From Chitinophagales bacterium (lineage in GTDB: Bacteria > Bacteroidota > Bacteroidia > Chitinophagales > UBA2359): DNA of 43,875 nucleotides. The stretch spans positions 1 to 43,875 of the forward strand of contig JAEUUX010000105.1 of assembly GCA_016787295.1 (NCBI GenBank). The letters are read 5' to 3'. Position 1 is the stretch's first letter. Each line of letters starts with the position of its first letter. This document shows positions 4,465-32,272 of this stretch, in pieces. The notes below the pieces were generated by a model, which had not been told where the DNA came from, searched no databases, and worked only from the letters and a program-made list of their open reading frames with translations. Both the position numbers and the translations under genes were made by a program.

Positions 4465-5406
4465 TCACTCCCAACAAGCTAAATCCGCTGCTACTTGTTG
4501 CGAAAACGAGGCGGCTCCTTGCGGGTTGAGGTGCAAAATATCCAAAAACAAACTATCTTTCCCTGCAAAAAGGCGACTATAATCCCACTGTTGCACTTCG
4601 GGATAGTGTTGCAACAAAGAATCGACAGGCGAAACCAAAGGCGGGTTGGGGAAAATAGAGTCTACAATATGTTGCGTACAATCGGGCATAGGGTAGGAGA
4701 GGAGTATAATGGGCAAATGCTGCCTGCGACACAAATCAATAATTCTTTGCAAATACAACAAACCTGTATGACTATAAAGCGTGGCAGGTTTTTTTTGTAA
4801 GAGGGTATTCCAAACAAAGTTGCGGGCTATGGCATCATTTTGAGCCGCGCTATGTTCGTTGAGTTGGGCGGCATTATCCACTCCAAATTGAAAAACGTTT
4901 TCCATGCCCCGCAAAAAAATGTCACGACTCTCTATATACGGAAAAAAACGGTACACATAATAAGTCTTTTGAGCAGCAGCAAAAGGAATATGGTGGGTCT
5001 CGCTCCAATCGGCATAGTCAATCAGTTGGTTATAATAATAGTAGTTTCGGACATAATCGATATTACTTTGGGCATAAATAGAGAAATCGTGCGACAATAG
5101 CAGCACTTCGGGTTGCGGTGCCTTGGGCGTATCAAACAGTCTCTGGAGTTTGTAATACCGCATAGCAACACTTTCGCCGCCTGCTGCCCACTTTTGAGCC
5201 GCAGGAATTTGGTCGAGCAATACTGCTTTATTGGCGCGCGAATCTCCCATAAACAAATAACGATAGCCTTGCGGAGGATAAAGCACTTGCTGTTCGGCTT
5301 TCCACAAATCGCCTTTGCCAAATTTTTGCGTAAAAATGGCATACAAAGCCCCATGCAAGAACAAACAAACGACAAAGAACAACAGCATTTTGCGTACCAA
5401 CACCAT
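4465..5406 (-). CDS. membrane-anchored SGNH/GDSL-hydrolase-like protein
   Basis: The 313-residue protein starts with one membrane helix (about 4-24), so the body is likely periplasmic. Block I of the SGNH fold is seen as YLFMGDSRANKAV around residues 50-62 (GDS with the nucleophile Ser), and a block V-like LFLDILHLNPQG near residues 292-303 supplies the Asp and His. Such proteins often act as acyl- or acetyl-transfer or hydrolysis enzymes on envelope sugars, which would fit the convergent membrane protein next door. The substrate cannot be told. A TACCTTAG box upstream of the start is a near match to the -7 consensus. Confidence 0.6.
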   Translation of the reverse strand: MVLVRKMLLFFVVCLFLHGALYAIFTQKFGKGDLWKAEQQVLYPPQGYRYLFMGDSRANKAVLLDQIPAAQKWAAGGESVAMRYYKLQRLFDTPKAPQPEVLLLSHDFSIYAQSNIDYVRNYYYYNQLIDYADWSETHHIPFAAAQKTYYVYRFFPYIESRDIFLRGMENVFQFGVDNAAQLNEHSAAQNDAIARNFVWNTLLQKKPATLYSHTGLLYLQRIIDLCRRQHLPIILLSYPMPDCTQHIVDSIFPNPPLVSPVDSLLQHYPEVQQWDYSRLFAGKDSLFLDILHLNPQGAASFSQQVAADLACWE

Positions 5407-5657
5407 AATTATTCGAATTTGGCGCTAAGGTAAGCCATATTACTGGGTTTTGCAAAAAACGATAGCGAATCGGCAATTGTTAATTGGCTTTTGGACAGAA
5501 ATGCGCTAAGAAGCATCGGTGTGGTGGAGCTTTCTCCCTAAAGTAGTGTTTAAATTTTATTTTATGGAGAAAATGAAGACGAAAAAGCACACTAATTCCT
5601 ACCAAACACACCAAGCAATAAGAAAAAAAACTATCTTTGCGCCGAAAATAATTGACT

Positions 5658-7355
5658 ATGACACCACCTTCCACACCTATACGGATTTTTATTGCCTACT
5701 CCAAACACGACGAAGCCTATTTAAAGGCTTTACTGAAACATTTGAAACCTTCCACAAAGAATAATACGATAGAAGTATTCCACGACGGCGAAATAGAGGC
5801 AGGCAAAGAATGGAACAAGACCATTAAAGACAACCTACACCAAAGCGATATTATATTGCTCTTGGTGAGCGCCAATTTTGTGGCTACTGATTACTGTTAT
5901 GATGAAGAAATGATAGCAGCCATTGCCCTGCACGAGCAAGGAAAAGCACAAGTTATCCCTATCATTGTCACGCCTTTTGATTTCGAGGATATGCCTTTTG
6001 CCAAACTCAACTTTCTACCTTCGAAAGCCAAACCGATTAGTTTGTATAAAGATGAAGGGCAGCACCAAGCCTATACAGAAATAGTAATTGCCCTAAAAAT
6101 CAATTACAAAGAAGTATATAAACGCCGTGAGGTTTTGCAAAAAGCAAAGCAGGAGCAAGAAGCGCAGGAAAAGGCGGAACAGGAGCGACAGGAAAAAGAA
6201 GAAAAGGCTGCAAAACGCAAACAGTATGACGATTGTTGCAAAAACGCTGACAACTTGTTTAAGCAAGAGAGGTGGGGGCAAGCCAAAGAACAATACAAGG
6301 CTGCTCAAGGAATGTATGAAGCGGGATATACTCCCAAAGCAGATGCTTTACAAATTAAGATAGAGCGATGTGATGATGAAATAGCAGCCCGCGATTATAT
6401 AGACCATGCCAAAACCTGCCTACAAGACCGAAAGTATGAAAAGGCAGCCCTTTCGCTACAAAATGCCTTGAAAGAAAAACCAAGTTTAAAAGAACGTCCC
6501 GATATACAGACTTTGCAACAACAAATCCAAGACGGTATTGTTGCAGAACGCGAACGCAAAGCCCATGAAGAAGCGGAACGCAAAGCTCGCGAGGAGGCGG
6601 AACGCAAAGCCCATGAAGAAGCGGAACGCAAAGCCCATGAAGAAGCCAAAATACGCCAACTTCCTGTCCCCATACAACAACTCCTACAAGACATGGTCTT
6701 GGTAGAAGGCGGTAGCTTTATGATGGGTAGTGATGATGGACGTGATAGTGAAAAACCCGTACATCGTGTAAGTTTGGATAGTTTTCATATAGCCAAATAT
6801 CCCATGACTCAAGCGCAATGGCAGGTAATTATGGGCAGTAATCCGAGCGGGTTTAAAGGAGATAATTTACCTGTCGAGCAGGTAAGTTGGCAGGACGTAC
6901 AAGACTGTGTAGCAAAACTAAACGCGATGCTCCAAAAAGCGGAATTGCCCGCAGGTTTCTGCCTGCCGACCGAAGCCCAATGGGAATATGCTGCGCGCGG
7001 TGGCAATAAAAGCAAAGATTATAAATATGCAGGCAGTGATGATATAGACAAAGTGGCATGGTATGATGGTAATAGCAGCAACCAAACACAGCCCGTAGGT
7101 CAAAAAGAAGCTAACGAACTCGGTTTGTATGATATGACTGGCAATGTGTGGGAATGGTGCGCAGATTGGTATGGTGGTGATTATTATAAAAACAGTTCTA
7201 CTAATAACCCTATTGGTCCATCTACTGGCACAGGCCGCGCGTTGCGCGGCGGCAGTTGGGGCAGCAGTGCGGGGAGCTGTCGTGTGGTTATTCGCGGCAG
7301 CGGCGCACCTACTATCCGCTACAACATCTTAGGCTTTCGTCTCGTAGTGAGGTAG
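5658..7355 (+). CDS. TIR domain / coiled-coil / FGE-sulfatase protein with DGR-type variable C-terminus
   Basis: A 565-residue three-part protein. Residues 5-150 form a TIR domain starting IRIFIAYSKHDEAYLK; the helix after SANFVATDYCYDEEM carries Glu83/Glu84, where bacterial TIR NADases keep their catalytic Glu. Residues 152-335 are coiled coil and TPR-like, ending in four ERKAHEEA-type octads. Residues 345-565 are an FGE-sulfatase (SUMF1-like C-type lectin) domain with MVLVEGGSFMMGS, LPTEAQWEYAARGG, DMTGNVWEWCADW and RALRGGSW. After Trp534, 14 codons (535-537, 540, 544-545, 547-549, 552-553, 555-557) are all NNY and reachable from AAY by changing A only, embedded in fixed A, CR, R, AP, R, LGFR residues. 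That is the pattern of DGR variable regions in this fold. No reverse transcriptase, template repeat or avd gene is in the window. The ATG at 5658 is chosen over a TTG two codons earlier; a TATCTTTG box lies at 5632-5639. Confidence 0.85.
   Translation: MTPPSTPIRIFIAYSKHDEAYLKALLKHLKPSTKNNTIEVFHDGEIEAGKEWNKTIKDNLHQSDIILLLVSANFVATDYCYDEEMIAAIALHEQGKAQVIPIIVTPFDFEDMPFAKLNFLPSKAKPISLYKDEGQHQAYTEIVIALKINYKEVYKRREVLQKAKQEQEAQEKAEQERQEKEEKAAKRKQYDDCCKNADNLFKQERWGQAKEQYKAAQGMYEAGYTPKADALQIKIERCDDEIAARDYIDHAKTCLQDRKYEKAALSLQNALKEKPSLKERPDIQTLQQQIQDGIVAERERKAHEEAERKAREEAERKAHEEAERKAHEEAKIRQLPVPIQQLLQDMVLVEGGSFMMGSDDGRDSEKPVHRVSLDSFHIAKYPMTQAQWQVIMGSNPSGFKGDNLPVEQVSWQDVQDCVAKLNAMLQKAELPAGFCLPTEAQWEYAARGGNKSKDYKYAGSDDIDKVAWYDGNSSNQTQPVGQKEANELGLYDMTGNVWEWCADWYGGDYYKNSSTNNPIGPSTGTGRALRGGSWGSSAGSCRVVIRGSGAPTIRYNILGFRLVVR
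6548..6647 (+). repeat. in-gene 24-bp tandem repeat
   Basis: About four 24-bp units encode ERKAHEEA-like octads (one unit has Arg in place of His) between the TPR-like part and the FGE domain. They would extend a charged helix and could vary in number by slippage without shifting the frame. Confidence 0.8.
7257..7352 (+). other. candidate DGR variable region (VR)
   Basis: This is the 3' end of the TIR-FGE gene. From Trp534 to the last codon, variable-type codons GGC, AGC, AGT, GTT, ATT, ACT, ATC, TAC and AAC alternate with constant codons, and every variable codon ends in C or T. The constant tail GGCTTTCGT (Gly-Phe-Arg) would be the mutagenic-homology end. The pattern is directly visible; that a retroelement made it is inference, since FGE domains without DGRs share the RGGSW...R...GFR frame. 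Confidence 0.55.
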
Positions 7356-9022: not shown

Positions 9023-9359
9023 GGTAAATACGGATTTAAAAAATAATTCAAAAAATTAGTTCAGGTACGGTAGTAGGGTAGGTAGTACTATTCATTCCAT
9101 CAAATCAACAACATCAATGCGATGTTGTGCGCGAAAAAAAATGTGTCGTGCATTCAGGGCAAGTTTTCAATTATCAATTGTTATTGGTCAATTGTTAATT
9201 GTTGTGTCAGGTAGTATTTCCGTTATAAACGCAAGAGCATTTGCTCAATTATCAAATATTAGTTGTTAATTGGTGTTTAGTCATCTTTTGAAGGTTTTCT
9301 TTTTGTTTGATTTTATTATTGGCATAATGCCACAGCTTTCTTTTTTTAACGTTATTATT

Positions 9360-9763
9360 GCATGGAGCAATTATTAATTATCAGTTGTCAATGGTTAATG
9401 CTTTTGTTTTGGGCAATAAAACGCCATGGTTTTTGTATTATTGTGCGACTTTGCTTTTTTTGAAAAATTTTATTTGTATGACGCAACAAAAGGATAATAG
9501 GTTGCATGGAGCAATTATTAATTATCAATTGTCAATGGTTAATGCTTTTGTTTTGGGCAATAAAACGCCATGGTTTTTGTATTATTGTACGACTTTGCTT
9601 TTTTTGAAAAATTTTATTTGTATGACGCAACAAAAGGATAATAGGGTTGCATGGAGCAATTATTAATTATCAATTGTCAATGGTTAATGCTTTCCTTTGA
9701 GCAATAAAACGCCATGATTTTTGTACTGTTGTGCGACTTTGCTTTTTTTGTGAAAATTTTACG
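9360..9763. repeat. 144/145-bp tandem repeat, about 2.8 copies
   Basis: Units begin GCATGGAGCAATTATTAATT at 9360, 9504 and 9649, the last being partial and diverged. Each includes the TTAATTATCAATTGTCAATG core related to the 23-26 kb repeat family and a GCGACTTTGCTTTTTTTG block. The first two copies differ at only a few bases, so the duplication is recent. Translations across it are open only because the period is a multiple of three. Confidence 0.85.
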
Positions 9764-9832
9764 GTTCTTCCATGATTTTGGCAATAGTCAACAAAAAAAC
9801 GGGTTTATTTTCTTTCTAAACTCCCAAAACGC

Positions 9833-9975
9833 ATTGAAACGCCGCATTTCTCATGAGAAATGAAGCAAAGAACAAGAGAAACGCCGCATTTCTCATGAGA
9901 AATAGAGCAAAGAACAAGAGAAACGCCGCATTTCTCATGAGAAATGAAGCAAAGAACAAGAGAAATGAAGCACAA
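9833..9975. repeat. 42-bp palindrome-bearing tandem repeat
   Basis: Units start at about 9841, 9883 and 9925, with a partial fourth at 9967. Each holds the perfect 18-bp palindrome CATTTCTCATGAGAAATG followed by an AGCAAAGAACAAGAG segment. Units are almost identical. The last ones run in frame into the transposase-like remnant. Confidence 0.85.
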
Positions 9976-22936: not shown

Positions 22937-23690
22937 GCCATTCGTTTCGATTAATAGCATAAATGCCCGAAAAACGGGTTTTTAATTGTTAATTATCAAT
23001 TGTTAATTGTTAATGGAATGCAGTTTTGTCACCTTTTCAGGCTTAATTGTTTGGTTGTATTTGTCAATGACAAAAAAATGTTTCACGGTTTTATGGCATT
23101 GTTTCATTTTTTTTCAAAAAATACAAACAACGCCACCAAATACCATTTTTTAATTGTTAATTATCAATTGTTAATTGTTAATGAAATGCAGTTTTGTCAC
23201 CCTTTTAGGGTTAATTGTTTTGTTGCATTTGTCAATGACAAAAACAATAACACATAAAAAAATAACAACCCCGAAGGGGTGACAAGTTTATAGCAAAACG
23301 GAAACAAAAGATTTCACAAAAACCCCGAAGGGGTGATATGTTATTTGTTATGCGATGTTGACGACAAAAGTAAGTGCAATTTTTTCCAAAAATAACCATT
23401 AACAATTCAAAAAATGGTTGTATTTTGTTTGTGTGTGTGGGAATGTTGCCAATAATGTCACCCTTTCAGGGTTTTATAAAATGTTGTTTTTTGTTTTTGG
23501 CTACAAACTTGTCACCCTTTCAGGGTTAATTGTTTTGTTGCATTTGTCAATGACAAAAAAATGTTTCACGGTTTTATGGCATTGGTTCATTTTTTTTCAA
23601 AAAACACAAACACCACCACAAAACGGTTATAAATAATTCCCAAAATATCACACATATTTTACAAATCATAACACATCGCTAAAAAAAGCC

Positions 23691-23930
23691 ATGTCAACGA
23701 CAGAAAAAGGTGTGTCAACGACAAAAATAGATGTGTCAACAACAGAAAATTGTTTGCAAAAGACAAAAAAAGCCATGTCAACGACAGAAATTGGCGTGTC
23801 AACAACAGAAAAAGGTGTGTCAATGACAGAAAAAACCATGTCAACGACAGAAAAAGGTATGTCAACGACAAAAATTGGCGTGTCAACAACAAAAAGTTGT
23901 TTGCAAAAGACAAAAAAAGCGGGTTTTTAA
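23691..23930 (+). repeat. 21-bp minisatellite, in-frame heptad copy 1
   Basis: Eleven 21-bp units read MSTTEKG VSTTKID VSTTENC LQKTKKA and so on, ending Gly-Phe-TAA, 79 residues. The TAA lies in the start of the following R1 repeat. Translation has not been shown, and the TAnnTTTG promoter motif is missing. Confidence 0.6.
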
Positions 23931-24614
23931 TTGTTAATTATCAATTGTTAATTGTTAATGGAATGCAGTTTTGTCACCCTTTCAGGGTTAATTGTTTTGT
24001 TGTGTTTATTAATGACAAAAATCACAACACATAAAAAAATAACAACCCTGAAAGGGTGACAAGTTTATAGCAAAACGGAAACAAAAGATTTCATAAAAAC
24101 CCCGAAGGGGTGACACATTACTTGTTGCGTTATGTCTATGGCAAAAATAAACGTTTTTTAATTGTTAATTATCAATTGTTAATTGTTAATGGAATGCAGT
24201 TTTGTCACCCTTTTAGGGTTAATTGTTTTGTTGTATTTGTCAATGACAAAAACCACAACACATAAAAAAATAACAACCCTGAAAGGGTGACAAGTTTATA
24301 GCAAAACGGAAACAAAAGATTTTGCAAAAACCCCGAAGGGGTGACACATTGCTTGTTGCGTTATGTCTATGGCAAAAATAAACGTTTTTTAATTGTTAAT
24401 TATCAATTGTTAATTGTTAATGGAATGCAGTTTTGTCACCCTTTTAGGGTTAATCGTTTTGTTGCATTTGTCAATGACAAAAAAATGTTTCACGGTTTTA
24501 TGGCATTGGTTCATTTTTTTTCAAAAAACACAAACACCACCACAAAACGGCTATAAATAATTCCAAAAAAGTCACACATATTTTACAAATCATAACACAT
24601 CGCTAAAAAAAGCC

Positions 24615-24833
24615 ATGTCAACGACAAAAAAAGGTGTGTCAACGACAGAAAATTGTTTGCAAAAGACAAAAAAAGCCATGTCAACGACAGAAATTGGCGT
24701 GTCAACAACAGAAAAAGGTGTGTCAATGACAGAAAAAGGTGTGTCAATGACAAAAAAAGCCATGTCAGCGACAAAAATTGGCGTGTCAACAACAGAAAAT
24801 TGTTTGCAAAAGACAAAAAAAGCGGGTTTTTAA
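24615..24833 (+). repeat. 21-bp minisatellite, in-frame heptad copy 2
   Basis: Ten heptads of the same (M/V)STT(E/K)xx type, ending LQKTKKAGF and stop; 72 residues. It starts after the same ATCGCTAAAAAAAGCC block as copy 1. Confidence 0.6.
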
Positions 24834-25223
24834 TTGTTAATTATCAATTGTTAATTGTTAATGGAATGCAACGTTGTCACCCTTTTAGGGTTAATTGTTT
24901 TGTTGTGTTTATTAATGACAAAAAAACGTTTCACGGTTTTATGGCATTGGTTCATTTTTTTTCAAAAAACATAAACAACATGACCAAACACCATTTTTTA
25001 ATTGTTAATTATCAATTGTTAATTGTTAATGGAATGCAGTTTTTTTACCCTTTTAGGCTTAATTGTTTTGTTGTATTTGTCAATGACAAAAAAATGTTTC
25101 ACGGTTTTATGGCATTGGTTCATTTTTTTTCAAAAAACACAAACACCACCACAAAACGGCTATAAATAATCCCCAAAAGGTTACACATATTTTACAAATC
25201 ATAACACATCGCTAAAAAAAGCT

Positions 25224-25463
25224 ATGTCAACGACAAAAAAAGGTGTGTCAACGACAGAAAATTGTTTGCAAAAGACAAAAAAAGGTGTGTCAACGATAGA
25301 AAAAGGTATGTCAGCGACAAAAATTGGCGTGTCAACAACAGAAAAAGGTGTGTCAATGACAGAAAAAGCCATGTCAACGACAGAAAAAGGTGTGTCAACG
25401 ACAAAAATAGATGTGTCAACAACAGAAAATTGTTTGCAAAAGACCAAAAAAGCGGGTTTTTAA
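25224..25463 (+). repeat. 21-bp minisatellite, in-frame heptad copy 3
   Basis: Eleven heptads (79 residues) with the same start context and the same Gly-Phe-stop junction to R1. The unit order differs from copy 1, implying independent gain and loss of units. Confidence 0.6.
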
Positions 25464-26000
25464 TTGTTAATTATCAATTGTTAATTGTTAATGGAATGCA
25501 ACGTTGTCACCCTTTTAGGGTTAATTGTTTTGTTGTATTTGTCAATGACAAAAACAATAACATAGAAAAAAATAACAACCCTGAAAGGGTGACAAGTTTA
25601 TAGCAAAACGGAAACAAAAGATTTCACAAAAACCCCGAAGGGGTGATATATTATTTGTTATGCGATGTTGACGACAAAAGTAAGTGCAATTTTTTCCAAA
25701 AATAACCATTAACAATTCAAAAAATGGTTGTATTTTGTTTGTGTGTGTGGGAATGTTGCCAATAATGTCACCTTTTCAGGGTTTTATAAAATGTTGTTTT
25801 TTGTTTTTGGCTACAAACTTGTCACCCTTTCAGGGTTAATTATTTTGTTGCATTTGTCAATGACAAAAAAATGTTTCACGGTTTTATGGCATTGTTTCAT
25901 TTTTTTTCAAAAAACACAAACACCACCACCAAACGGCTATAAATAATTCCCAAAATGTCACACATATTTTACAAATCATAACACATCGCTAAAAAAAGCT

Positions 26001-26030
26001 ATGTCAACGACAAAAAAAGCGGGTTTTTAA
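26001..26030 (+). repeat. 21-bp minisatellite, collapsed copy 4
   Basis: A single heptad, MSTTKKA, followed by GF and TAA in the same context. It shows that the array can shrink to one unit and still keep frame and stop. Confidence 0.6.
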
Positions 26031-26649
26031 TTGTTAATTATCAATTGTTAATTGTTAATGGAATGAAGTTTTGTCACCTTTTCAGGGTTAATTGTTTTGT
26101 TGCATTTGTCAATGACAAAAATTACAACCACCATTGTACAATATTGTTTCATTTTTTTTCAAAAAACATAAACAACGCCACCAAATACCATTTTTTAATT
26201 GTTAATTATCAATTGTTAATTGTTAATGGAATGCAACGTTGTCACCCTTTCAGGCTTAATTGTTTTGTTGCATTTGTCAATGACAAAAACCACAACCACC
26301 ATTGTACAATATTGTTTCATTTTTTTTCAAAAAACACAAACAACGCCACCAAACACCATTTTTTAATTGTTAATTATCAATTGTTAATTGTTAATGGAAT
26401 GCAACGTTGTCACCCTTTTAGGGTTAATTGTTTTGTTGCATTTGTCAATGACAAAAATCACAACCACTATTGTACAATATTGTTTCATTTTTTTTCAAAA
26501 AACATAAACAACATGACCAAACACCCATTAACAATTGATAATTAACAATTAACCATTAACAATTAACCATTAACAATTAACAACCGTTTTTATGACAAGC
26601 TCTTTTGTGAAAAAAATGACAAAAAAATTACAAAAAAAATGAAAAAAAA

Positions 26650-26681
26650 TTTGGAAAATAAAATAAATGGCTGTACCTTTG
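26650..26681 (+). promoter_or_regulatory. strong Bacteroidota-type promoter
   Basis: TTTG at 26650-26653 and TACCTTTG at 26674-26681 with a 20-base spacer match the phylum consensus almost exactly. The next ATG is 55 bases downstream at 26737. It would drive the two-repeat protein and, in the absence of a clear terminator, possibly the hairpin array. Confidence 0.8.
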
Positions 26682-26736: not shown

Positions 26737-27522
26737 ATGGCAACTGTTATAGAGGTAGGTCATGCAAAAAATGTAGCTAATTTTCGTGCTTTAATTCTTA
26801 TATGTAGTCAACTTGGCAGCCAATATGACCCAAGTAATGAAGACTATTCTCTCGATTCGTTAAACACTATTTATAAAGCGGCTGATGCGGCTGTGAAATC
26901 GGTAGATGCGGCACGTGGACAATATGTGCAGGCTATCAAACCGCGCCAAGCTAACTTCCATGGGCTTGGTAGTCTTTGTACACGCATTGTTAAAAGCCTA
27001 AATTTGTTGCGCATCGACGCTGGCGTTATAGAAGCTATTAAAGGTGTGAACCGCAAAATTCAAGGTCAGAAAAAGAGTGGTAGCAAATTCTCTAATGACG
27101 TTTTTGAAGATGTTGTTAACGTAAACACAGAAAATGGCGAAACAACAGTTGCTCCTGTGGTTGATACAGAAAGCAGCAAAATTTCTAGCGCACAACTGAG
27201 TTATGACAGCAAATTGGCTAACTTTCGCCGTATGATAGAGCTATTGTCTGCCGAACCTAAATACATTCCTAACGAAAAACAATTACAAATCGTTAGTTTG
27301 AATGACTATTATAACCAATTGGAAAACGCCAATATCACTGCATTTAGCACTGGTTTGCAATTGATTAATGCCCGCGCCAAACGCAACGATATTTTATACA
27401 ATAACCCCAACAATTTGTATAGAATAGCGTTGGATATTAAAGACTATTTGTTGTCTGCAATAGGCAGTAATTCGCCTATCTACAAACAGGCTCGCAAATT
27501 GCGTTTTAGTCCCGGCAGATAG
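26737..27522 (+). CDS. two-repeat helical protein of unknown function
   Basis: The 261-residue protein has two related halves. The first reads VANFRALILICSQLGSQYDP, then SLDSLNTIYKAADAAVKSVD; the second reads LANFRRMIELLSAEPKYIPN, then SLNDYYNQLENANITAFSTG. Both continue with ARG/ARAKR, a helix with NLxRI, and a KxxL end. There is no signal peptide or membrane helix, so it is probably cytosolic. A Ser/Thr/Val-rich linker (about 123-165) joins them. I recall similar proteins only as hypothetical proteins of Bacteroidota. It has the best promoter in the window and lies directly upstream of the nine-hairpin array; a link to the array is inferred from position only. Confidence 0.75.
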   Translation: MATVIEVGHAKNVANFRALILICSQLGSQYDPSNEDYSLDSLNTIYKAADAAVKSVDAARGQYVQAIKPRQANFHGLGSLCTRIVKSLNLLRIDAGVIEAIKGVNRKIQGQKKSGSKFSNDVFEDVVNVNTENGETTVAPVVDTESSKISSAQLSYDSKLANFRRMIELLSAEPKYIPNEKQLQIVSLNDYYNQLENANITAFSTGLQLINARAKRNDILYNNPNNLYRIALDIKDYLLSAIGSNSPIYKQARKLRFSPGR

Positions 27523-27780
27523 TTGTTAATAAACCGCATAGTGCAAATAATAGTGTATCGACGCACAACAGTTTGCCATTTGTGGTAAAAAAAACTTTTG
27601 CTTAAACAAAACTCTTGTAATAGTGCTTAATTATAAGTACTATGGGAATTGTTTTGCTGGGTTTGAGGCAGTTTAATTTGTTTAAAAATACTATTAATGT
27701 TGCTTATTGTTGAAATAAATCAGCCAAATAGTTTTTTTTAAGAAGCTAAAACGTGTAAAAAAGTTTTGAAAATTAAATAA

Positions 27781-27832
27781 TGTGACCCCATCTCCTGTTT
27801 GTGTTCTCACAAATGGGAGAAAAGGGAACACA
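27781..27832 (+). repeat. array hairpin 1
   Basis: TCTCCTGTTTGTG pairs over 13 bp (two wobbles) with CACAAATGGGAGA around loop TTCT. An outer TGTG...CACA and CCC...GGG pairing extends it. Confidence 0.75.
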
Positions 27833-28015
27833 ATTAGTAAAAAATAAGCCTCAATAAGCACTAATGCAATAGGTTTTGTTGCAAAATGCTTTTGCGTTTT
27901 CAGAAATAACTGCTATCCGTTTTAATAAACGAGCTTGTGCATTGCATATCTCTTTCAAAAGGGTATATTATATTATCCAAATAAAGTAAATAATTTAGGG
28001 TGAAAGAATAAATTG

Positions 28016-28060
28016 TTTCCTACCCTTGCCTGTGTCTAACATGGGCAAGGGAATAGGAAA
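28016..28060 (+). repeat. array hairpin 2
   Basis: Outer stem TTTCCTA/TAGGAAA, inner stem CCCTTGCC/GGCAAGGG plus TGTG/CATG, AA bulge on the 3' side, loop TCTAA. Nineteen pairs in all. Confidence 0.8.
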
Positions 28061-28242
28061 TACCTTATTCCAAATGCCAAAAATATAAGCTATTATTGTG
28101 ATAATAAGTGCTTTTTTTGAGGTATAAAAACCTTTTTTTGAAAAAATATCGCTAATTTGCGCAACACAAAAAGCAATATTGTGATGATGTAAGATAATTT
28201 TTGAGCTAAAATGTTTATTTCAAAAAGCTAAGTATTAAAAAA

Positions 28243-28296
28243 AACGGATTTCCATCTCTCACTTGTGCGTGCATGGATGGGAAAAAAGGAAACGTT
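28243..28296 (+). repeat. array hairpin 3
   Basis: Outer AACG+TTTCC with GGAAA+CGTT; inner TCTCACTTGTG with CATGGATGGGA (one mismatch, wobbles), loop CGTG. It is the weakest inner stem but keeps the two-tier layout. Confidence 0.6.
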
Positions 28297-28457
28297 TTAT
28301 CAAATGTCAAACATTTTTGCTATTATTGTGACAATAATGCTTTGATAAGGCAACAATGTCATTTGTTTTTAGAACAAAAGGCTTTTTTATTGCTGAAAAA
28401 ATGCCAGTTTATTGCTCTATGAGATTTTAATAAAAAGTTTAAATGATGAGAACAATA

Positions 28458-28500
28458 TTCCCTTCCTTGCTTATGCGTGCATGGGCAAGGAAAATGGGAA
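28458..28500 (+). repeat. array hairpin 4
   Basis: Outer TTCCC/GGGAA; inner TTCCTTGCTTATG with CATGGGCAAGGAA, 13 bp, loop CGTG. Confidence 0.8.
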
Positions 28501-28710
28501 GCCATCGCTCCAAATACAATACTATATGGACAAAAATAGGGCGATTTAGAACAGAAAAAACATCAAAAATGCCATAAAATGCCTTCAAATATAGACACTC
28601 AATAATCATTTGTCCCCATAAAACAAAATTTTTCAAACATACAAACTTGCAAGTTTCATACAAGAAAGTTAAAAGATTTGTGGTGATTTAAAAAATAAAT
28701 AAAAAGATCA

Positions 28711-28742
28711 TTTCCCCGTTCGTAGGGATACGCGCAGGGAAA
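28711..28742 (+). repeat. array hairpin 5
   Basis: TTTCCC/GGGAAA outer stem, CGTA/TACG inner stem, GGGA loop. The middle (C17-A36 type mismatch, T-C) is less well paired than in units 6-9. It is followed at about 28820-28910 by the first copy of the conserved downstream block. Confidence 0.75.
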
Positions 28743-28988
28743 ATTGGGGGGCAAAATTGACCCAAATCAATAGGCATAAACCTTCAAAATATACCCAATT
28801 GTATCTTTTTATAAAGACCGTGTTTCAAAATTTGGGCAATTTGCCATTTCTTGTATAGTTTGTTGCTGCAAAACGGTTTTGTGTGGTGGGAAATGAAGTT
28901 TATTTGCTATAAAAACAAACACAATAGATACAAATCTAAACACAGAATTCATAATAAAGAGAGTTTAAAAAATCAAAAAAGTTTTCAT

Positions 28989-29018
28989 TTTCCTGCTCGT
29001 AGGGATACGCGTAGGAAA
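28989..29018 (+). repeat. array hairpin 6
   Basis: TTTCCTGC pairs with GTAGGAAA... on the return strand (G-T wobble), then a T-C mismatch, CGTA/TACG and loop GGGA. Downstream block at about 29094-29204. Confidence 0.8.
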
Positions 29019-29281
29019 TTTTTAAAGAATACCGTCAAAATAAATAGGCATAAGACAAAAAAATAGACCAACGTTCATGTATTAACAAAGACTATGCTTC
29101 AAAATTTGGGCAATTTGCCATTTCTTGTATAGTTTATTGCTGTAAAACGGTTTTGTGTGGTGGAAAATGAAGTTTATTTGTCCGCAAAAAGTATGATTAA
29201 GAACCAAATGGGATAAACAATAGTATTTTTGATACACTAAAAAGTTCTTTTTGATAAAAGAGTTTAAAGTTAAAAAATATA

Positions 29282-29311
29282 TTTCCTGCTCGTAGGGATA
29301 CGCGTAGGAAA
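29282..29311 (+). repeat. array hairpin 7
   Basis: Identical to hairpin 6 in the stem-loop; the two units are the most similar pair, including the TTTTTAAAGAATACCGTCAA stretch after the stem. Downstream block at about 29387-29497. Confidence 0.8.
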
Positions 29312-29571
29312 TTTTTAAAGAATACCGTCAAAATAAATAGGCAAAAAACAAAAAAATAGACCAACGTTCATGTTTTAACAAAGACTATGCTTCAAAATTT
29401 GGGCAGTTTGCCATTTCTTGTATAGTTTATTGCTGTAAAACGGTTTTGTGTGTTGGGAAATGAAGTTTATTTGCCCGCAAAAAGTATGATTAAGAACATA
29501 CAAAGTATAGATTTTAGTTTGTAATGATTTTTTTTAAAAAAAATAATGTAAAAAAGTTTTTAGTTAAGCAC

Positions 29572-29601
29572 TTCCCTGTTCGTAGGGATACGCACAGGGA
29601 A
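29572..29601 (+). repeat. array hairpin 8
   Basis: TTCCCTGT / ACAGGGAA: relative to hairpin 9 a C-G pair is replaced by T-A, a compensatory change. CGTA/TACG and GGGA loop kept. Downstream block at about 29679-29790. Confidence 0.8.
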
Positions 29602-29866
29602 TATTTTTATAAAACATCATCAAAAAGAATAAACAAAAAGTAAAAGAAATACAGCCAATTGTACCTTTTTATAAAGACCATGCTTCAAAATTTGGGCAGT
29701 TTGCCATTTTTTGTATAGTTTATTGCTGCAAAAAGGTTTTGTATGCTGGAAAATGAAGTTTATTTGTCCGCAAAAAGTATGATTAAGAACACAAACGCAG
29801 GGACAATTTTTTTTTTGAGGTATTTAAAAAAAAAAGTTGAGAAATCAAGTTGAATATTGTAAGAAA

Positions 29867-29896
29867 TTCCCTGCTCGTAGGGATACGCGCAGGGAA
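29867..29896 (+). repeat. array hairpin 9
   Basis: TTCCCTGC / GCAGGGAA, T-C mismatch, CGTA/TACG, loop GGGA. It is the last unit and lacks the downstream block found in units 5-8. Confidence 0.8.
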
Positions 29897-30332
29897 AATT
29901 ATAAAAAAAAATGGACTAAATGAATAGGTACAAGCAATAAAAAATGCTTCGTTTATGTTTTTCTATCAAACAAAAGCATTGTTGGGTGTCATTGTATTGT
30001 GTCTTGAGGAGCTGTACTGATTTTTTTTAACAAAAAAAGGTAAAAAAAGTTTTTGTTGTTAAATAAACTACCTCCTACATTTGTTTGTTGAATGATAAAG
30101 AGATGTTTAGGGGGTGTTAACAACAAATTAGCAAAGATGTGGAGGTGGTATTGCAAGCAACATTGCCATTTTTTGAGACCCATCTTTCGGAAATGCCAAA
30201 TTTTCGGAAAAATATTGCTGGATTATCCCCATTTTTGAAACCAATACTTTGAAAAATTGAAACACCATGAGGTTTATTAATAAGATGATATTCCCGAAAC
30301 TAAGCATTATTACCAAAAAACAATAAAAAAAG

Positions 30333-30363
30333 CGCCAAATTTGTAGGTAATACAAATTTGGCG
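30333..30363 (-). terminator. terminator of the sulfatase-type gene
   Basis: CGCCAAATTTGTA (30333-30345) pairs perfectly over 13 bp with 30351-30363; on the minus strand a run of seven T follows. Confidence 0.85.
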
Positions 30364-30391
30364 TATTTTTGCACCCGTTAATAAGAAAGCA

Positions 30392-32272
30392 TTAATAACA
30401 AATAGCCAAGTGGGACAGTTGATTATGTAGCATGGCGTTGTTATAGGTTTGGATAGTGGCTTTGAGGTATTGTTGCAAAGTATCTTCTGTGGGCAATGCG
30501 TGTCCGATTAGGTTGCGTTGGAGCAAAGAATCGGAGGGGTAGTGATAAAAACCGATGTTTTGTTTGCCATCAAACTGCAAACAGTATTCATCAGATAAGA
30601 CTTGGTACATTTCTTCGGCGTAGCTGTAGGCATAATGGTGGTGAGTGGGGTCAAAAATGCTTTGTCCAAACGCCATATACGGCACGGAGTTTCCAATATA
30701 GTCCAAAATGGTGGGCATAATGTCAATTTGTTGCACAACACGGTTGTATGTGCCTTGAAGAGAGCCGTCGGGATAATAAAAAGCAATGGGAATGTCATAC
30801 ATGCCCACCTTAGTGTGGGTATAGGGCGAGGCGGCGGGTCCTGCATGGTCGGCAACAATCACAAAAAGGGTGTTGCGGAACCAAGGCATTTGCTCGGCGG
30901 TTTTGAAGAACTGTCGCAACGCATTATCAGTATAGCGAACGGTTTTGTGAATAGGTTCGGTGCCTTCAGGATATAGGTGCGCTTTATCAATGGGCAAGGA
31001 AAAGGGGTGATGCGAACTCAATGTGAATACAGCAGCCCCGAAAGGTTGCGGTAATTGGTTGAGGTTTTGTGCGGTGAACTGCAAAAAAGGTTCGTCATAT
31101 ATGCCCCAATGATTATCATAGTCGGCATCGTTGTTATAGGCTTTTCGTCCGATGTATTCATCAAATCCTGCTTGTTGGCTAAACTTGTCGAAGTCAAAAG
31201 TGCCGTCGTTGCCACCATGAAAAAATGCGGTGGAGTAGTTTTGTTGCTTCAAAACGTTGCCAAGACCGTCAATGTGGTTGTCTTTGTAGTTGGAAATCAT
31301 AAAAGCATCGCCCATCAAAGGCGGAATGCTGCTCATGATAGACACAATTCCGATGTTGGAATGTTTACCGTTGGCGTAGGCGTGCGTACAGACGAGGCTG
31401 TGTTGGAATAAGCTATCCAAAAAAGGTGTATAGGGTGTGCAGTTGAAATAACCCATGTATTCGCTCGAAAAACTCTCTAAGACAATGACCAAAACATTCG
31501 GCTGTTTGTTGGCAGCAGGGGCGAAGTGTGTATCTCCGCATTGCATATTGGTACAATATTGCCCGCATTGGGTAGGAGGGAGGTAGTGTTTGGGTTCAAT
31601 TTGTTTTTTTGCCAACGATTTGATGATGGTGAAAGGCGTATTGGTGACCAACGACACATTAGAACGCGGCACATAGCTGGCAGCCGTGATGGGGCGCAGT
31701 TCTTCGTATCCAAAACTGCCTCTGGCGCCGATGATAGTGACCAATAAGACGACCAAAATAGGCAGAATTTCGGCGCTGTAGTATTTGGGTGGCTCCAAGT
31801 CGTGGCTATTGCGAATGTGACGATACATTTTGTAGAACAAAACACTCAAAAAGAACAAAACGACAAACAAATACCAGAAGTCGTGCAGAAAAGTGGGAAT
31901 GAGGGAACTCACATCGTTTTTCACGCCGACCACATCGGCAGTGGTGCGTCTGAAAATGTATTGGTAGTAGCCCATATCCAAGACGTTAAGCCCTAAACAA
32001 AAGATATTAACCGCCAAAAACAATATACCCAATAGGTTTTGATACCAGCGTTGATAACAAAACGAAAAGGGCAAAATGGATAATAAAATGATGGGGACAT
32101 TACTATAGGCAATGGCTGAAATATCAAACAACACGCCGTATAACATGGCTTTGACGAAGATGGTAGTGCTTAGATCGGGAAAATGATGGAAGTTGAATAC
32201 GATAAATAAAATGCGACAAATGGTGTAAAGGATTAACACCAACGTCATTTTTTTGAGCAATAAGCGTTTCAT
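30392..32272 (-). CDS. LTA-synthase-like sulfatase/phosphotransferase, membrane enzyme
   Basis: The 626-residue protein has five membrane helices in residues 1-190 and a periplasmic alkaline-phosphatase-fold domain from about 260. Metal-ligand motif PNVLVIVLESFSSEYMG, nucleophile region GKHSNIGIVSIMSSIPPL (Ser in place of the usual Thr), TAFFHGGNDGTFDFD, FTLSSHHPF and VIVADHAGPA are typical of the LTA synthase / phosphoethanolamine-transferase family. In a Gram-negative it probably modifies lipid A, glycans or a periplasmic glucan rather than making teichoic acid. A TATCTTTG box on the minus strand is at 32344-32351. Confidence 0.88.
   Translation of the reverse strand: MKRLLLKKMTLVLILYTICRILFIVFNFHHFPDLSTTIFVKAMLYGVLFDISAIAYSNVPIILLSILPFSFCYQRWYQNLLGILFLAVNIFCLGLNVLDMGYYQYIFRRTTADVVGVKNDVSSLIPTFLHDFWYLFVVLFFLSVLFYKMYRHIRNSHDLEPPKYYSAEILPILVVLLVTIIGARGSFGYEELRPITAASYVPRSNVSLVTNTPFTIIKSLAKKQIEPKHYLPPTQCGQYCTNMQCGDTHFAPAANKQPNVLVIVLESFSSEYMGYFNCTPYTPFLDSLFQHSLVCTHAYANGKHSNIGIVSIMSSIPPLMGDAFMISNYKDNHIDGLGNVLKQQNYSTAFFHGGNDGTFDFDKFSQQAGFDEYIGRKAYNNDADYDNHWGIYDEPFLQFTAQNLNQLPQPFGAAVFTLSSHHPFSLPIDKAHLYPEGTEPIHKTVRYTDNALRQFFKTAEQMPWFRNTLFVIVADHAGPAASPYTHTKVGMYDIPIAFYYPDGSLQGTYNRVVQQIDIMPTILDYIGNSVPYMAFGQSIFDPTHHHYAYSYAEEMYQVLSDEYCLQFDGKQNIGFYHYPSDSLLQRNLIGHALPTEDTLQQYLKATIQTYNNAMLHNQLSHLAICY

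Follow-up and report, generated by a model that had tools for sequence, protein, structure and literature searches.

A tandem array of nine hairpins with paired stem changes in a Chitinophagales genome: a candidate cluster of structured noncoding RNA units

Results

The locus and its gene context

The window analysed here, 43,875 nucleotides from a Chitinophagales bacterium, makes up the whole of contig C71, one of 296 contigs in a genome of 5.42 Mb, whose promoter type, gene content and homologues point to Bacteroidota. Between positions 27523 and 30391 it holds no open reading frame longer than 75 amino acids, which bears out the initial annotation, where about 2.1 kb of this region had been described as free of genes. 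This 2.9-kb stretch hosts the array and is the longest gene-free stretch found in the 1.63 Mb of the genome that was sampled. It is flanked by a gene on the plus strand (26737-27522), encoding a hypothetical protein of 261 amino acids, and by a convergent sulfatase gene on the minus strand (30392-32272). Ahead of the upstream gene lies a predicted promoter, TTTG-N20-TACCTTTG (26650-26681, plus strand), of the sigma-ABfr form (PMC7366714), at which a transcript covering both gene and array could start. A terminator-like site, annotated on the plus strand at 30332-30370, serves both strands, ending the array as well as the convergent sulfatase gene. It is the sole plus-strand site of this kind after the upstream gene and lies just past the last hairpin; none was found between the upstream gene and the array.

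Both neighbours were considered as partners of the array and rejected. The product of the upstream gene matched no Pfam or NCBIfam family; it has five matches in its own genome and is patchily distributed across the order. A comparable array is absent from all loci of its homologues, two of which (L046 and L052), read in detail, have hairpins directly 3' of the stop codon and no array. Synteny with the sulfatase gene was ruled out as well, since four members of that family share neither common neighbours nor an array. Genes neighbouring the array are found in other genomes without it.

Geometry of the hairpin units

Nine hairpin cores span positions 27791-29896 on the plus strand, as the initial annotation had reported. 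Core-to-core spacings are, in order, 231, 233, 208, 249, 277, 293, 290 and 295 bp, so that the range is 208-295 bp in place of the 215-295 given there. All nine share one geometry, a 30-nt core (31 nt in U2) with 13 paired positions and a 4-nt loop (5 nt in U2), and the stem alignment of U1-U9 is gap-free except for one loop base in U2. The first four cores are U1 (27791-27820), U2 (28022-28052, with an outer tier at 28015-28063), U3 (28255-28284), which has two competing folds and a minimum-energy fold differing from that of the family, and U4 (28463-28492), which also has an outer tier. In each of the remaining units, the core is followed by a conserved domain: U5 (28712-28906, core 28712-28741, domain up to GTTTATTTG), U6 (28989-29205, core 28989-29018), U7 (29282-29498, core 29282-29311), U8 (29572-29790, core 29572-29601) and U9 (29867-29942, core 29867-29896), the last with a partial domain. 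All lie on the plus strand, and the sequence TCGTAGGGATACGC belongs to U5-U9.

The sequence of U1-U4 differs from that of U5-U9 at most stem positions, and the 13-position, 4-loop geometry is nevertheless kept, in agreement with the description of two sequence groups that retain one long stem and a small loop. U5-U9 carry a T/C mismatch at stem position 9 and have the tip A-GGGA-U, whose GGGA loop we take to be a GNRA-type tetraloop. An outer TTyCC/GGrAA tier had been ascribed to most units. As a separate tier it exists only in U1-U4 (CCC/GGG in U1), whereas in U5-U9 the core stem itself has these letters at its base. A sliding fold over 27500-30390 gave 12 plus-strand peaks at or below -12 kcal/mol, as against a mean of 3.7 and a maximum of 7 in dinucleotide shuffles. 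These 12 peaks are the nine units, the terminator (30332-30364) and two extra plus-strand hairpins at the edges, U0 (27606-27656) and U10 (30063-30117), both of which fall outside the family by model R3.

Paired changes unite the nine units

In the stem alignment of the nine units, both sides change with pairing kept at 9 of the 13 pairs. The covariation score, calculated on rows that are paralogues within one array in one genome, was 0.604 for U1-U9 as compared with 0.379 in shuffles, and none of 500 shuffles reached it; paired cells amounted to 92.3% as compared with 83.1%. The signal was lost when the partner was slid by 1-3 columns. U1-U4 alone also passed the test (0 of 500 shuffles), and the signal in U5-U9 alone was weak because their tip is invariant. 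The claim that structure is kept over sequence is thus upheld, and the lack of significant covariation that the initial annotation had named as counter-evidence is contradicted. Selection is judged from paralogues in a single array, because no relative of the array was found.

Covariance models of one half of the array weakly detect members of the other half, U4 in the case of R1 (E 0.017) and U9 in the case of R2 (E 0.025). A model of the family recovers the nine units; neither the window nor the portion of the genome that was read gave another convincing member. Over the whole genome, matches of R1 and R2 are confined to this array, as is the U5-U9 motif. U1-U4 and U5-U9 are more than analogues of each other, and all nine units belong to a single family.

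Conserved 3' domains and spacers

A conserved domain of about 160-190 nt follows each hairpin of U5-U8, and the modules measure about 195-218 nt and have diverged to about 84%. Over 217 nt, U6 and U7 share 96-97% identity, and at both edges they abruptly become unrelated. The spacers are AT-rich, 72-81 nt long, with little similarity beyond A and T tracts. On the plus strand they include those of U6/U7 (29206-29280, about 75 nt, no clear kinship to other spacers), U7/U8 (29499-29570, 72 nt) and U8/U9 (29791-29865, 75 nt). The tails of U2 and U3 are similar to each other (z 7.2 over the first 120 nt).

Further readings of the units were tried and rejected. RNAalifold yields a structured 3' domain, but one no better than column shuffles. 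On the minus strand of the U5-U8 domain, a frame is open in all four copies, with third codon positions accounting for 7 of 11 variable sites; coding was nonetheless dismissed, there being no common start and no significance across the six frames. The frames of short peptides from the U1-U4 stems are not conserved when compared by eye.

Strand preference, promoters and terminators

The more stable fold lies on the plus strand in 9 of 10 hairpins, or in 10 of 11 once U0 is counted. With pairing positions fixed and distinct rows counted, core mispairs on the plus strand comprise 12 G.U and 3 A.C (P 0.018). Because of shared ancestry, this bias falls to about 8 G.U against 3 A.C separate events, and counted in this way the wobble bias is suggestive only. 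The array has no terminators of individual units, the single plus-strand site coming after the last one. As to promoters, no TAnnTTTG of the sigma-ABfr type recurs in register across the units, and the AT motif GTAAAAAAGTTTT upstream of the units was not above chance over the window; the units may have noncanonical promoters. The fold bias, the mispairs, the GGGA loop, the terminator and the upstream promoter are indirect signs that favour transcription of the array from the plus strand.

Search for relatives

The array was not found by DNA searches of 61 relatives and of 398 genomes of the order. The covariance-model search of Bacteroidota that the initial annotation had proposed, run on 395 genomes of the phylum, gave no array either. 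An Rfam scan, at the gathering threshold and at E up to 10, returned nothing above chance level, and neither a pattern scan of viral contigs nor blastn against phages and plasmids gave a match. The pattern, with 18 fixed bases, matched 8 times in 84,980 genomes, in unrelated phyla, where about 7 matches are expected by chance. An absence of homologous arrays from relatives, which had been named in advance as a result speaking against a new RNA family, is thus what these searches returned. The searched genomes include none of the same genus, and closer relatives could carry the array.

R2 matches in G010 and G015, two genomes of one genus in the same family as the source, were rejected, since the long hairpins concerned are dispersed and belong to an interspersed element unrelated to the array. 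This element (contigs L067, L083, L086, L090 and L092 in G010; L068, L087, L089 and L091 in G015) is often located near contig ends. It has a very long hairpin, CCGACCCCATTTTT...AAAAATGGGG, and conserved flanks GGACTAGCAGGGCTGAC... and GCTATCCGCTTGTAGTTG.

Tandem repeats and a 21-bp phase in the same genome

Repeats were surveyed in a sample of 1.63 Mb (the window, L114-L133 and L146-L245). Direct repeats cover at least one-third of nine of the ten longest gene-free stretches, one of the nine, on L225, being a CRISPR array (4953-6823, repeat GTAGCAACCCTTTTCCACTATCAGAATGGATTGTGAC). Tandem Repeats Finder reported 63 non-redundant arrays, quite different in sequence, whose period is exactly 21 bp, a huge excess over every other period between 12 and 30 bp, of which the commonest, 15 bp, had 12. 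Among longer periods, multiples of 21 are frequent (42, 84, 126, 168, 210, 231, 252, 294 and 336 bp), and 17 of 41 noncoding arrays have a period that is an exact multiple of 21, where 2 are expected. A length of 21 bp is suggestive of two helical turns of DNA or of seven codons. The spacings of the nine hairpins prefer multiples of 21 (V test, p 0.0015; 0.004-0.009 with dependent spacings dropped), the phase having been taken from the other arrays and not from a free search. With eight spacings and residuals of up to 4 bp, the fit is approximate only. Since arrays are common here and the spacings fit this phase, tandem arrangement alone says little.

Many of the 21-bp-period arrays lie at contig ends. 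In 0.30 Mb of genomes of the same order, 9 arrays with periods that are multiples of 21 (on L038, L040, L041, L044, L050, L051, L053 and L091) were counted against 8 others of period 30 bp or more, and the phase may be general in the order. Within the window, 22960-26590 is a 3.6-kb noncoding block of nested repeats, comprising TTAATTG heptamers, CCCTTTCAGGGTT motifs, 168- and 231-bp units and 21-bp GTGTCAACGACAG minisatellites; similar heptamers and CCCTTTCAGGGTT-type motifs also occur in contigs L045 and L165. At 9358-9972, a 144-bp tandem repeat (2.8 copies) is followed by a 42-bp repeat, GAAACGCCGCATTTCTCATGAGAAATGAAGCAAAGAACAAGA. Intergenic tandem 21-bp palindromes are present at L114 10947-11314 (GACCTACTATTTTGGTAGGTC) and L245 3744-4226 (ACCTAAAAGTTTAGGTCTTGC), with variants that change both arms. 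L148 carries a long array without hairpins.

Discussion

Our tentatively preferred reading, to which we give somewhat less than an even chance, is an array of structured noncoding RNA units, amplified locally and transcribed from the plus strand. The array would probably be one long transcript or a set of tandem small-RNA precursors. Transcription could begin at the promoter of the 26737-27522 gene, making the array a very long 3' extension of that transcript, or at noncanonical promoters in the spacers, and it would yield repeated RNAs of about 200-290 nt. The hairpin could then act as an element of stability, processing or protein binding, as in multicopy small RNAs whose copy number raises dosage. 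Against an RNA array speak the missing relatives, the absence of an in-register TAnnTTTG and of terminators for each unit, and a 3' domain whose structural signal does not exceed that of column shuffles. The proposal of a candidate new noncoding RNA family is not established. The step from array to RNA family is weakened by the abundance of tandem noncoding arrays in this genome, and palindromic tandem repeats elsewhere in it also show paired arm changes.

A serious rival, and one that may quite possibly be right, is a DNA-level tandem repeat in which expansion at a phase of about 21 bp produced hairpins that have no RNA function, their palindromes owing their symmetry to hairpin-templated (template-switch) mutation or to gene conversion. 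Where palindromes occur, template-switch mutation could give paired changes without selection. The prevalence of direct repeats in the longest gene-free stretches, the 63 arrays of 21 bp with larger periods often at multiples of 21, the matching spacings of the array, the paired arm changes at L114 and L245, and the lack of homologues elsewhere all agree with such a process. Symmetry of this origin, however, predicts no strand preference, whereas G.U mispairs outnumber A.C and the plus-strand fold is the better one in 10 of 11 hairpins. Nor does it account for a 13-position, 4-loop geometry common to two halves that differ at most stem positions, and long arrays such as that of L148 imply that repeats in this genome do not automatically bring hairpins. 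Strand asymmetry and fixed geometry tip the balance toward a transcribed RNA array, a reading that is held back by the missing relatives and the repeat-prone genome.

The other explanations weighed are less probable. That the array amounts to no more than a long 3' UTR of the 26737-27522 gene, with hairpins serving as exonuclease barriers or back-up terminators, accords with the common strand, with a canonical promoter before the gene and with a terminator only after the array; we regard it as rather unlikely, since one hairpin would be enough, such a role does not call for nine spaced units with conserved tails, and post-stop hairpins occur at L046 and L052 with no comparable array there or at any other homologue locus. 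A protein sponge of the CsrB/RsmZ type, in which repeated GGA hairpins sequester an RNA-binding protein, is conceivable for U5-U9 only. Their A-GGGA-U tip fits ANGGA, the core recognised by CsrA, and the units are repeated, possibly in one transcript. The loops of U1-U4, by contrast, have no GGA, a csrA-like gene was not found in 1.59 of the 5.42 Mb (29% of the genome), and CsrA is not known to be typical of Bacteroidota, which makes a sponge very improbable. Imperfect hairpins, regular spacing and a gene-free stretch would also suit the remnant of a mobile element (REP/RAYT, IS200/IS605 ends or an integron cassette array). This is barely credible for an array whose U5-U9 motif has no dispersed copies, in a genome that lacks a Y1 transposase (five control genomes give matches) and around cores none of which is flanked by a RYYYAAC/GTTRRRY pair; REP/RAYT and IS200/IS605 elements and attC arrays were ruled out on these grounds. 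The initial annotation was also right to set aside other familiar systems. CRISPR is incompatible with modules of such length and divergence and with AT-rich spacers, and the true CRISPR array of L225 looks different; tRNA and rRNA clusters were excluded by tests, and ordinary terminators for each unit by the single plus-strand site past the last one.

It is also imaginable, though unlikely, that a lineage-specific RNA locus grows by tandem amplification under a helical-phase rule of DNA. Nine hairpin RNA units of invariant geometry would then be spaced at multiples of about 21 bp, the phase that noncoding tandem repeats of many sequences have in this genome, and such a locus would represent a new route for the de novo origin of noncoding RNA clusters. 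More generally, if the array is transcribed, its tandem cluster of structured noncoding RNAs would be of unusual size for a bacterium, and it would show a young noncoding RNA family caught expanding within one lineage. If it is not transcribed, it clearly illustrates how covariation, the customary proof of RNA structure, can be imitated by tandem palindromes where a genome is prone to repeats, a useful warning for noncoding RNA screens built on paralogous copies.

Among known systems, the CsrB/RsmZ sponge RNAs likewise have repeated hairpins, and their GGA tip is matched in U5-U9; unlike them, the array has loops without GGA in U1-U4, and csrA was not found in the part of the genome read. The multicopy small RNAs FopS of Bacteroides and LhrC of Listeria resemble the array in forming several paralogous noncoding stem-loop units per genome. 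FopS RNAs are about 65-70 nt long, lie mostly at separate loci, are conserved across Bacteroidaceae and have canonical promoters (PMC11697453), and LhrC RNAs have terminator stems and CU-rich seeds (PMC4132741). By contrast, the units described here follow one another at intervals of 208-295 nt in a single tandem array that is known from one genome, and they have neither a canonical promoter nor a terminator each. STAXI and pan RNAs are likewise small structured elements in tandem, the former being pseudoknots in two to three repeats near genes for DNA-handling proteins and the latter stems upstream of pantothenate genes (Weinberg et al. 2010, PMC2864571), whereas the array consists of nine simple hairpins extending over 2.1 kb, and its gene context is not conserved. 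Short tandem direct repeats such as TAACTGA, with 7-bp units mostly near start codons (PMC4679880), are also intergenic and tandem and are scattered over a few lineages, including Bacteroidetes; the units of the array differ from them in being long, diverged and hairpin-bearing.
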